A DNA stretch of 64,000 nucleotides from Nitrospira sp. (lineage in GTDB: Bacteria; Nitrospirota; Nitrospiria; Nitrospirales; Nitrospiraceae). Where the stretch lies: assembly GCA_024331095.1 (NCBI GenBank), contig JANDJE010000008.1:1-64000 (forward strand), in the 5' to 3' direction. The position numbers and the translations under genes are program-made. The notes under the pieces are model-generated. The model had not been told where the DNA came from. It made no database searches and saw only the letters and a list, made by a program, of their open reading frames with translations. Positions 13,057-16,866 of this stretch are shown here, one piece after another (the stretch's first letter is position 1; each line of letters starts with the position of its first letter).

Positions 13057-13800
13057 ATGACACGAGACGATCTGTCCATACGAGTCGTCTTCTTCGACGC
13101 GGCCGGCACGCTGTTTCGCGTACGCGGGTCGGTCGCCGAGATTTATCTCCGATACGCCGTCCGGTTCGGTTTTCAGCAGAAAGCCGATTCTCTTATCTCG
13201 ATCAAGGAAGCGTTCGGCCGGGCTTTTCACGAGGCCCCGCCGCCGGTCTTTGCGACGACGGAACCGGCTCAACTCAAGCAAAGCGAGCGGTTGTGGTGGT
13301 TCGACATCGTCCACAACGTGTTCTACCGCGTCGGCATGTTCGAACGGTTCGACGATTTTTTCGACCGTGTCTTTGAGGTCTTTGAAGATCCCGCCTCGTG
13401 GGAGCTCTTTCCGGAGACGCTACCGACGCTGGCGCGATTGAAGGAGCGGGGGCTGGAATTGGGAATCATCTCGAATTTTGACTCGCGCCTGTTTTCGGTC
13501 ATGCGAGGACTGGGGATCGCCGATTTGTTCGATACGGTGACGATTTCCAGCCTGGCGCAGGCGGCGAAACCGGCCTCCAAGATTTTTCAACTGGCCCTGA
13601 ACAAACATGCCGTTGATCCGGAAGAGGCGTTGCACGTGGGCGACAGTGTGCGGGACGACTTGGAGGGAGCCCGTCGATCCGGTCTGCACGCCCTTTTGTT
13701 GGATCGAGAAGGCATGCACAGGGATCATAGGGACGATGCCGTGCGAACCTTGGACGAAGTGATGGAGCGGCTCGGCCGGGATTATAAGAATCGGAAGTGA
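13057..13800 (+). CDS. HAD-superfamily hydrolase (subfamily IA)
   Basis: 247-residue haloacid-dehalogenase-type phosphatase. Motif I is FFDAAGTLF, with the DxxGT pattern instead of DxDGT; motif II is IISNFD, motif III the KPASKIF lysine, and motif IV HVGDSVRDDLEGA. An alpha-helical cap follows motif I. DxxGT occurs in HDHD3-like and some dehalogenase-like members, so the substrate class is open. It faces the sirtuin gene convergently. Confidence 0.85.
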   Translation: MTRDDLSIRVVFFDAAGTLFRVRGSVAEIYLRYAVRFGFQQKADSLISIKEAFGRAFHEAPPPVFATTEPAQLKQSERLWWFDIVHNVFYRVGMFERFDDFFDRVFEVFEDPASWELFPETLPTLARLKERGLELGIISNFDSRLFSVMRGLGIADLFDTVTISSLAQAAKPASKIFQLALNKHAVDPEEALHVGDSVRDDLEGARRSGLHALLLDREGMHRDHRDDAVRTLDEVMERLGRDYKNRK

Positions 13801-13837
13801 GAGAAACGGTTCTCGTGCTCGATCGATCGGAACGTCT

Positions 13838-14578
13838 TCATCCGTCGCCAAGAAACCGCGGCACCACGTCTTTCGCCCGCCCGCGCAACGAGACATCGGC
13901 GAGATCGGTCTGCGGCGTCTCGTCGGGATTGATTTCCCCCACGAACGCTCCCGCTTGCTTGGCGATGGCGGCGAAACCGGCCGCCGGATAGACCACGCCG
14001 GACGTTCCGATGATCAACAACACGTCGCAGGAACGAAGCACGTCATGGCAACGGGCCATGTCCGTTGGATCGAGCGATTCTCCGAACCAGACGATGTGAG
14101 GTCTTAGAAGACCGGCGCATCCGGCGCAGGAGGGGAGAATCTTGATCGGCACTGATCGGTCCTCCTCGACGCGCCCGCATTGAGTACAATGGACCATCCA
14201 GATATTGCCGTGAATCTCGGAGAGCTTGCGGGAGCCGGCCTCCCGATGCAACCCGTCCACGTTTTGCGTAATCAACCAAAACCGCTCGTGTCGTTTTTCC
14301 AGCTCGACCAGGGCGTAGTGAGCGTCATTCGGACGGATGGCGGCGATGAGTCCTCTCCGCCAGTTGTACCATTCCCAGACCAGGCGCGGGTCTCGCTCAA
14401 ACGCTTCGGGTGTGGCCAGTTCCTCGGCGCGATAGGTTCGCCAGAGGCCGCCCGCTCCTCGAAAGGTGGGGACGCCGCTGTCGGCGGAAATGCCGGCTCC
14501 GGTCAAAACGACGATCGCTCGCGCCTCGATGAGCCGGCGCTTAAGGAGAGTGAGATCCGATGACGGTCTCCCGGTCAT
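13838..14578 (-). CDS. cobB: Sir2-family NAD-dependent protein deacylase
   Basis: Sirtuin of 246 residues that removes acyl groups from protein lysines using NAD. It has the NAD-binding GAGISADSGVPTFRG, ITQNVDGLHREAG with the catalytic His, and a four-cysteine zinc site CTQC...CAGC. Length and motif order match bacterial CobB. The RAEELATPEAF segment, where class III enzymes carry Tyr and Arg for succinyl binding, has Ala-Thr-Pro-Glu; deacylase preference is not assigned. Confidence 0.92.
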   Translation of the reverse strand: MTGRPSSDLTLLKRRLIEARAIVVLTGAGISADSGVPTFRGAGGLWRTYRAEELATPEAFERDPRLVWEWYNWRRGLIAAIRPNDAHYALVELEKRHERFWLITQNVDGLHREAGSRKLSEIHGNIWMVHCTQCGRVEEDRSVPIKILPSCAGCAGLLRPHIVWFGESLDPTDMARCHDVLRSCDVLLIIGTSGVVYPAAGFAAIAKQAGAFVGEINPDETPQTDLADVSLRGRAKDVVPRFLGDG

Positions 14579-14649: not shown

Positions 14650-14684
14650 ACCGTCACTTCCAGCGCAACAAACGGAGTCTCTTG

Positions 14685-16049
14685 ATGAAACAGATCCTCG
14701 TCGTCGGTGCGGGGTCCGTCGGTGGATACTTCGGTGCCCGTCTGGCCCAACAGCATCCCCATGTCTCTTTCTTGCTGCGGCCCAAGACGCTCGCGGCGGT
14801 TGTCCAACGGGGCCTGACCGTTCGGAGTGCGACCGGGTCCTTCACCGTGCGGCCTCAAGCCTCCTCGGATGCCAGGAACCTTCCCGTTCCGGACCTGATC
14901 ATCCTGGGAGTCAAGGCTTACGACCTTGACGAGGTGATGGATCAGATCGAGCCCGTCTTGACGGACAAGACGGTGATTCTGACTCTCCAGAACGGGATCG
15001 AAACGGAAAATCGCATACTGGATCGGTTTCAACGGGATTGCGTCGTCGGGGGAGTGGCCTATATCTATTCCAAAATCGCCGAACCGGGCGTGATTGAGCA
15101 TTATAAGCGAGGCGCCGTGGCGATCGGCGAATTGATGGGACACGAGAGTCCTCGCCTGCTGGCGATTCGCGACCTCTTTGCCGCCGCCGGCATTCCCTGC
15201 CATCTTGCAAAGGATATCCGGCGAACGAAGTGGGAAAAGATGTGCTGGAACTGTGTCTTCAATCCCATCACGGTCTTGATCAACGACCGCGTCGCCCTGG
15301 CGTTGGATCATCCGGAGATGATGGGGGTTATCCGGCAAGTGGTCGGAGAGGTGGCGGCGGTCTCGGCGGCGTTAAAAGTGCCCTTGCCCCCGGACATGCC
15401 GGAACGGGTCGTGAAGGCGACGCAGGAAATTCGCGATATCCACACGTCCATGTATGATGATTGGGCGGCGGGACGCCGGACCGAAATCGACGCCTTAAAC
15501 GGGTATATCGTCAAAAAGGGGCGCGAACTCGGCATTCCCACGCCGGTGAATGAAGCGCTCACGGCGATGATCAAGACTCTGACGGAGAAAGAACGGACCG
15601 GCCCAGGGCGAGTTCGCATCGAAGGCGCGGTCGTGCAACCGGTATCGTTCGATCACACGGCCATTGCGGCCCTGCCGGCCGAGCATCACGTGGATGTTTC
15701 GACCGCTATGCCCGGCGCAACGGGGCGAGGCGTTCGGCTGAGAGGCTTGCTCGACGTTCCGGCGCTGGCCGTTGACGCGGATCATGTCACCGTTCACTCG
15801 GCGGATGGAACCTATTCGGCCTGTCTGACGTTGCGGCAGGCTATAGACTACGGCATTCTCGTGTATGAACTGGAAGGAGCGCCGTTGCCCGCGTCGAAAG
15901 GCGGACCGTTTCGCCTGATCACTCCCGGCTTGGGCGATCTCTGCGCCAACGTGAAGGGGGTGGGGCGGATTGAAATCACCAAGGGGCCGGGCCGCGACAC
16001 GAGGCAAACGACTTGTCCCCCGGAGATTCAGACCGGAGACCGAACATGA
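14685..16049 (+). CDS. 2-dehydropantoate-2-reductase-like protein fused to a molybdopterin-fold domain
   Basis: 454 residues; the ATG at 14685 has GGAG 7 bases upstream. Residues 1-305 are a complete ketopantoate reductase: GAGSVGGYFGARL (NADP binding), ILGVKAYD, LQNGIE, the KWEKMCWNCVFNP helix with catalytic Lys and Asn, and the C-terminal AGRRTEIDALNG. Residues about 308-425 look like a short sulfite-oxidase-type molybdopterin domain (EGAVVQPVSF, RGVRLRGLLD, YELEGAPLPASKGGPFRLITPG). The molybdenum-ligand cysteine expected in the first strand block is replaced by Ser339/Thr340. The reductase half could serve coenzyme A synthesis or an unrelated hydroxyacid; the second half may have no cofactor. 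GTG/TTG starts just upstream are less likely. Confidence 0.8.
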   Translation: MKQILVVGAGSVGGYFGARLAQQHPHVSFLLRPKTLAAVVQRGLTVRSATGSFTVRPQASSDARNLPVPDLIILGVKAYDLDEVMDQIEPVLTDKTVILTLQNGIETENRILDRFQRDCVVGGVAYIYSKIAEPGVIEHYKRGAVAIGELMGHESPRLLAIRDLFAAAGIPCHLAKDIRRTKWEKMCWNCVFNPITVLINDRVALALDHPEMMGVIRQVVGEVAAVSAALKVPLPPDMPERVVKATQEIRDIHTSMYDDWAAGRRTEIDALNGYIVKKGRELGIPTPVNEALTAMIKTLTEKERTGPGRVRIEGAVVQPVSFDHTAIAALPAEHHVDVSTAMPGATGRGVRLRGLLDVPALAVDADHVTVHSADGTYSACLTLRQAIDYGILVYELEGAPLPASKGGPFRLITPGLGDLCANVKGVGRIEITKGPGRDTRQTTCPPEIQTGDRT

Positions 16050-16101: not shown

Positions 16102-16866
16102 ATGGCCGACCGGATAGAGCGGATCGTGGCCCTCGGCGCGAGCAATTTGACGAGGGGCTTCCACACGATCGTCGCCTCGGCTCGGTCGGTCTGGGGGCCG
16201 GAAGTCGAAGTCTTCGCGGCACTCGGTCACGGACGATCATACGGAGCCCCGAGCCGGTTTCTCATTCGCACCTTGCCCGGTATTCTCAAGTCCGGTCTGT
16301 GGCACGAATTGGAACGACAACCCAGGAAGATCACCAGAGGGCTGGTCACCGACGTCGGCAACGATATTCTGTACGGGTTTCCCGTCGAACGCATAGTGGG
16401 ATGGGTCGAAGAAGTCCTGGTTCGCCTCGGTCGCACCACACAGGATATCGTGCTGACCGGGCTCCCGCTCGCCTCAATCCGCCGCCTGACGACTCTCAAG
16501 TTTCTGGCCTTTCGCACGGTCTTGGTGCCGTCTTGTCGGCTCTCGCTGGCGCAAGTTCTCGATCGGGCGGAGCAAGTCAACGGAGGAATGGCCTTGTTGG
16601 CTGCGAAGTATGGCGTGGAGTTTTTCCCGTTGAACCCGGCCTGGTATGGATTCGACCCCATCCACATTCGACCATGGCTCTGGCGTTCGGCCTGGCGGCA
16701 AATTCTGGGGGTTACGCTGGACGCGCAAGGGGATCGAGGATCGATGCTCGAGGCCGCGAGGCTTTATTTCATGCGGCCTGAGCACCGCTGGTTATTCGGC
16801 AGAGAGCAGGTCACGCGGCAATCGGGCGTCGTGCTCCGCTCTGGGGGACGGGTATGGTTGTACTAG
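16102..16866 (+). CDS. SGNH/GDSL-hydrolase-like protein
   Basis: 254 residues from the ATG at 16102 (AAGG about 8 bases upstream). It shows the spaced blocks of SGNH hydrolases: a serine block ALGASNLTRG at the N-terminus, a GxND-like block TDVGNDILYG near 90, and the Asp-x-x-His block YGFDPIHIRP near 185. No signal peptide. Family membership is inferred from the three blocks; the substrate is unknown. It follows the fusion gene by about 50 bases on the same strand. Confidence 0.55.
   Translation: MADRIERIVALGASNLTRGFHTIVASARSVWGPEVEVFAALGHGRSYGAPSRFLIRTLPGILKSGLWHELERQPRKITRGLVTDVGNDILYGFPVERIVGWVEEVLVRLGRTTQDIVLTGLPLASIRRLTTLKFLAFRTVLVPSCRLSLAQVLDRAEQVNGGMALLAAKYGVEFFPLNPAWYGFDPIHIRPWLWRSAWRQILGVTLDAQGDRGSMLEAARLYFMRPEHRWLFGREQVTRQSGVVLRSGGRVWLY

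Follow-up and report, generated by a model that had tools for sequence, protein, structure and literature searches.

The window, that is, the whole 64,000-nucleotide stretch of Nitrospira DNA analysed, carries on its plus strand a gene that joins a ketopantoate reductase (PanE) to a short domain of the sulfite oxidase (SUOX) type. The ORF extends from 14682 to 16049 and opens with TTG; GGAG precedes the ATG at 14685, which is the likelier start, and the 454 aa of the product are counted from this ATG. The features are as follows:

14685-16049, plus strand: PanE-SUOX fusion gene, 454 aa (ORF and domain matches; AF2 model with mean pLDDT 91.3)
14685-15584, plus strand: ketopantoate reductase part, residues 1-300, PF02558 and PF08546 (TIGR00745 at 266 bits; superposition on ketopantoate reductase structures, Z 38-39)
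15585-15608, plus strand: short linker, residues 301-308 (model mean pLDDT down to 74 in block 301-310)
15609-15998, plus strand: Cys-less SUOX-fold domain, residues 309-438 (PF00174 and fold comparison)
15699-15704, plus strand: codons 339-340 (Ser-Thr), Thr340 standing in the column of the canonical Mo-ligand Cys (alignment with canonical SUOX sequences and PruR)
15912-15914, plus strand: invariant Arg410, retained from canonical SUOX enzymes (123/123 family members, 11/11 canonical sequences)
15942-15956, plus strand: motif Cys420-Ala-Asn-Val-Lys424, with an invariant Cys absent from the aligned canonical SUOX sequences (Cys420 and Lys424 each in 123/123)

HAD hydrolase and Sir2 deacylase genes lie near the fusion (13057-14578). 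Downstream is a 254-aa ORF (16102-16866) for which Pfam gave no match with E of 0.001 or lower.

The ketopantoate reductase half

The original prediction described a complete PanE-like enzyme, and the domain and fold searches bear this out. Pfam families ApbA (residues 4-150, E 4e-37) and ApbA_C (residues 177-298, E 3e-35) span the full length of this half, and the ketopantoate reductase subfamily model TIGR00745 scores 266 bits over residues 4-301 against a cut-off of 141. In the AlphaFold2 model of the whole protein, built from 50 aligned sequences, the segment 2-304 fits solved structures of ketopantoate reductase with Z 38-39, including that of the archaeal enzyme with CoA (5ayv). Asn103, Lys182, Lys185, Asn189, Ser255 and Glu267 are each present in 62 of 62 relatives; we take the catalytic-type residues of PanE to be the Asn in QNG, the Lys in KWxK, and the Ser and Glu in S...TEI. 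Thus the complete fold and the catalytic-type residues are common to PanE/ApbA and the fusion, which differs by an extra C-terminal domain ∼150 aa long. NADPH-dependent reduction of ketopantoate is established for the PanE family and would be the activity of this half, judging from its sequence; the presence of panB and panC agrees with such a role.

An ApbA_C protein was found in 18 of 24 chosen genomes, once in 17 of them and twice in genome G021. Among the 13 of these genomes that carry the fusion, it is the sole ApbA_C protein in 12, the exception being G021. Gene panB was found in 23 and panC in all 24 of the chosen genomes (12/13 and 13/13, respectively, of those with the fusion); panB was not found in the window's own genome, which is 80% complete. 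Since the fusion is the sole ApbA_C protein in 12 of 13 genomes, it very probably serves the pantothenate/CoA pathway of the Nitrospira lineage as housekeeping ketopantoate reductase.

A SUOX fold lacking the molybdenum ligand

The C-terminal part matches Pfam family Oxidored_molyb (PF00174) at residues 342-434 with 54.7 bits (cut-off 24, E 1e-14). For the Mo-co dimerisation domain of the sulfite oxidase branch, there was no Pfam match in the 454 aa at E up to 1. When the whole model was the query, the fold search listed no chains besides those of PanE-like proteins and further dehydrogenases; the domain was therefore predicted alone (pLDDT 82.9). In this form, its model was matched to SoxC (2xts) with Z 18.0 and rmsd 4.2 over 139 residues, to SorA (2blf) with Z 16.4, to chicken sulfite oxidase with Z 15.1 and its C185S mutant (3hbg) with Z 14.9, and to PruR (7kos) with Z 14.4 and rmsd 2.2 over 118 residues. 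Among the matches listed (the best 50 at most), entries outside the SUOX fold had Z of 6.2 or less. All 42 Foldseek matches at E up to 0.001 were sulfite oxidases, related Mo enzymes, PruR and the YlaL model. The predicted model thus confirms the SUOX fold of the domain, as originally proposed, and the margin of the PF00174 score over its cut-off together with the predicted fold rules out a chance match. The interval originally given for the domain, 15600-15980, covers nearly all of it, the start being near residue 309.

For residue-level comparison, the domain was aligned with 11 canonical SUOX-type sequences taken from Nitrospirota genomes and with three plasmid-borne homologues of PruR. A second alignment comprised 124 unique domain sequences; one of them (L065_666_1322) was dropped as a canonical enzyme, which left 123 members. 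The missing metal Cys, with Ser339/Thr340 in its place, was part of the original prediction and is upheld: in the first alignment, Thr340, adjoined by Ser339, occupies the column of the Mo-ligand Cys, where PruR has Trp. The dropped canonical sequence serves as an internal control of the column mapping, since its Cys falls exactly at 340; it has a gap in column 420, and its Trp is in column 425. Residue 340 is T in 71 members, A in 15, Q in 9, V in 8, E in 6, K in 6, R in 5, P in 2, S in 1 and Cys in none of the 123; residue 339 is S in 90, G in 15, A in 11 and another residue in 7. A replacement Mo ligand at Ser339 or Thr340 is disfavoured, as neither residue is conserved (Ser in 90/123, Thr in 71/123).

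Other positions of the presumed pocket are kept. Asp374 is present in 122 of 123 members; residue 377 is aromatic in all (86 Tyr, 37 Phe); Arg410 and Lys424 are invariant. Equivalents of Asp374, Arg410 and Lys424 occur in all 11 canonical sequences. In canonical enzymes, the Arg and Lys contact the phosphate of molybdopterin. Asp374 aligns with the canonical Asp and with an Asn of PruR, and Tyr377 with a PruR Tyr. His371 and Asp418 are found in 116 and 118 of the 123 members, respectively. Cys420 is invariant (123/123) and lies in a one-residue insertion before Lys424, at which all 11 canonical sequences have a gap; the canonical V-K-W motif has lost its Trp, the residue after Lys, in all 123 members.

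Every pair for which dN/dS of the domain could be computed indicates purifying selection. Three pairs involving the window protein gave 0.06-0.11, and two pairs of stand-alone copies gave 0.045 and 0.061; two distant pairs, which include stand-alone copies of the order, gave 0.27 and 0.38. Of the 12 domain pairs tried, five were saturated and gave no value.

Three known groups are close enough for comparison. With the sulfite oxidase/dehydrogenase family (SoxC, SorA, SorT, MsrP; PF00174) the domain shares the fold core and the Asp, Arg, Pro and Lys positions (11/11 canonical); unlike that family, it lacks the ligand Cys and the Trp after Lys, was found with no dimerisation domain, and has an inserted Cys. 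YlaL (PDB 9a64, an integrative YlaL-SdhA model and not a crystal structure) is a short SUOX-like fold with Z 14.4 over 117 residues; unlike the fusion domain, it is not known joined to PanE. PruR, the periplasmic pterin-binding protein of Agrobacterium and Vibrio (7KOS, 7KOM, 7KP2; Z 12.9-14.4), is likewise a small SUOX fold without the Mo-ligand Cys, and the aromatic and Asp/Asn positions of its pterin site align with those of the domain. The differences are several. The domain is fused to PanE and has no signal peptide; none of its 123 members has the Trp found at position 340 in the three PruR homologues; it keeps Arg410, absent from these homologues, and has the invariant Cys420; and no DcpA/DTB gene lies beside the fusion, whose neighbours are the Sir2 gene and the 254-aa ORF. 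In this comparison, the Lys424 stretch and the C-terminal segment with Trp160, which is associated with pterin binding, were poorly aligned by MAFFT. We rejected membership of the PruR group as a classification and retained PruR as an analogy.

Fusions, stand-alone copies and probable losses

In the window's genus, the fusion is nearly full-length in 31 of 35 genomes and in pieces in two; it was not found in the remaining two, which are 54% and 80% complete. Of 198 genomes of the phylum, 54 have the domain with E of 1e-9 or lower (in 46 the frame is at least 449 aa long, in seven it is short, and one, G076, has a partial match). Two motifs of the Cys420-bearing domain family were also used to scan 84,980 species, each represented by one genome; of 167 stretches found, 151 were confirmed and the best 80 were kept. 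A survey of the fusion across genomes had been proposed with the original prediction; among these best 80 of 151 relatives, 72 loci carry fusions (N. defluvii and N. moscoviensis included) and 8 carry stand-alone copies. Going by their record titles, 79 of the same 80 are Nitrospirota-type and one (L087) is labelled Nitrospinota. In the tree, L087 falls among Nitrospirota fusions, and its label may stem from a mistake in naming or binning.

Of the 123 unique sequences, 108 have a PanE-length part upstream (short in L092), three are fusions truncated at contig ends and 12 are stand-alone copies; 111 distinct domain sequences are thus joined to PanE. An assembly artefact or frame error is ruled out by fusions in complete or one-contig genomes (L108, L111, G021, G023, G194). 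The fusion, originally singled out as unusual, is therefore real, but it is usual in the Nitrospira lineage and not peculiar to the window's genome. Neither the fusion nor the Cys420-bearing family was described in the titles and abstract openings among the literature matches listed. Its component parts are of known kinds; the Cys-less, Cys420-bearing domain fused to PanE is a variant that is new among those matches.

At 14 loci in three families of the class (f7, f8 and f10), the domain is encoded by a separate gene. At three of these loci (L063, L205, L209), it lies within ∼5 kb of panE; some loci end at contig ends. HAD genes are also found near the separate panE genes of these three loci, and in L063 panE overlaps the HAD hydrolase gene. 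His-rich tails with 11-29 His end 10 of the 12 distinct stand-alone copies, L061 and L062 having no tail; the 108 fusions have none or one His after the domain. Such tails, His/Asp-rich at the C terminus, are seen in L063:230-811, L064:1750-2292, L065:9114-9701, L066:6219-6788 and L067:9094-9612, with Manganitrophaceae-like genomes among the hosts; they presumably resemble the tails of metallochaperones. In genome G205 (L067:9094-11002), a histidine-phosphatase gene and a fused ThiS-MoaE gene precede the stand-alone gene on one strand, with gaps of 60 and 16 bases; this arrangement was seen in one genome, and L067 has a long branch in the tree.

That the domain always goes together with PanE is ruled out: besides genomes that have both, PanE was found by itself in G040, the domain by itself in G042, G048 and G205, and neither of the two in G036, G039 and G052. 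G042 and G048 are relatives from the order in which no ApbA_C protein was found in the genome. The stand-alone copy of G048 is sister to the fusion of G058 (support 99/97), and the two sites are syntenic on both sides (identity of 89% for NDK, 67% for the cyclase, and 82% and 89% for the next two genes), the G058 locus having one extra 725-aa ORF. Because of this sister grouping and syntenic site, loss of PanE with retention of the domain is most likely, at least in G048. The copy of G042 and the fusion of G055 share their neighbours, NDK and glycosidase-like genes. In both genomes (L062:9408-9854 in G048, L061:8888-9331 in G042), panB and panC are present without ApbA_C, and another enzyme may reduce ketopantoate there; G048 has two panB matches. 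The reverse state, PanE without the domain, is found in G040 (88% complete).

The stand-alone gene, the invariant Cys420 and the lack of conservation at Ser339/Thr340 are points that the original prediction did not contain.

Possible roles of the domain

Pterin-binding SUOX domains without the Cys exist, PruR being an example, and a review of PruR names Asn102 and Tyr104 as residues of its pterin site (PMC13259868). The original suggestion that the domain binds another small ligand thus has a precedent, and by this analogy it may apply here. We tentatively favour, at somewhat less than even confidence, a housekeeping PanE that carries a non-molybdenum ligand-binding module, the ligand most likely being a phosphorylated pterin-like molecule. 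The PanE part would reduce ketopantoate with NADPH; the C-terminal domain would be a cytosolic module, sensor or carrier, whose canonical Mo site is gone; a small anionic ligand would sit in the old cofactor pocket; and its binding could tune or localise ketopantoate reduction. A phosphorylated pterin, or something similar, is the likeliest candidate because several pocket positions match those of pterin-binding relatives. The enzyme activity, the ligand class, the pocket geometry and any effect on PanE are all deductions. Retention of Asp374, the aromatic residue 377, Arg410 and Lys424, with invariant Cys420 close by in sequence, speaks for the ligand-binding module, as do the survival of the domain where PanE is missing (G048, G042) and the ThiS-MoaE gene that precedes the stand-alone copy in G205. 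PanB makes ketopantoate, the substrate of PanE, using methylene-tetrahydrofolate, and folate is a pterin; a pterin or folate signal acting on PanE would therefore make metabolic sense.

Several observations count against a pterin-binding module. The domain does not have the Trp that PruR carries in place of the Cys, there is neither a signal peptide nor a DcpA-like gene next door, and the canonical Trp after Lys is lost in 123/123. The domain is dispensable for PanE in G040, most stand-alone copies do not lie close to panE (some loci being cut short by contig ends), and G021 has its second ApbA_C protein. The higher dN/dS of the two distant pairs and the five saturated pairs belong here too. 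Furthermore, the invariant Cys and the His-rich tails suit metal binding equally well.

This last point leads to a doubtful alternative: a module for Zn, Ni, Co or Cu in which Cys420 together with nearby His/Asp forms the metal site, fed in the stand-alone copies by the His tail. The invariance of Cys420, the near-invariance of His371 (116/123) and Asp418 (118/123), and the tails on 10/12 distinct stand-alone copies would all be accounted for. Yet the 108 fusions with at most one His after the domain, and L061 and L062 with none, all keep Cys420; a lone Cys is a weak metal motif; and invariant Arg410 and Lys424 indicate an anionic ligand.

We likewise think it unlikely that the domain is purely structural, aiding the folding or oligomerisation of PanE and binding nothing. 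Its nearly full-length union with a complete PanE in 31/35 genomes of the genus would suit such a role, as would the fact that the G040 PanE manages without it. A mere spacer, however, would not need invariant Arg410, Cys420 and Lys424, and the domain stands alone at 14 loci in other families of the class and also in G042 and G048, for which no ApbA_C protein was found.

That the protein is still a Mo (or metal-free molybdopterin) protein with Cys420 or Ser/Thr as ligand, or a cofactor carrier, is improbable: Arg410 and Lys424 are indeed retained from canonical enzymes, the top fold matches are Mo enzymes and a ThiS-MoaE gene lies near the stand-alone gene in G205, but residues 339 and 340 vary freely, Cys420 sits in an insertion before Lys424 outside the canonical ligand segment, the Mo-co dimerisation domain was not found in the Pfam search of the 454 aa, and G205 is a single genome.

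For annotation, the label ‘molybdopterin-dependent oxidoreductase’, when taken from the domain match alone, is misleading for the Cys420-bearing family. The family is an apparent second case, besides PruR, of a molybdopterin fold without the metal ligand; here it would be intracellular, and it has a displaced invariant Cys and is carried on a core vitamin-pathway enzyme of widespread nitrite oxidisers. The fullest version is speculative, and we would give it a low chance: a Mo-less cytosolic SUOX family, only Nitrospirota-type in the two-motif survey, would bind a phosphorylated pterin (folate- or molybdopterin-type) via its invariant Arg/Lys/Cys pocket and, fused to what is usually the sole PanE, would tie coenzyme A synthesis to the pterin/Moco state of nitrite-oxidising bacteria. 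If the domain does sense a pterin, folate or Moco status would be linked to the synthesis of coenzyme A.
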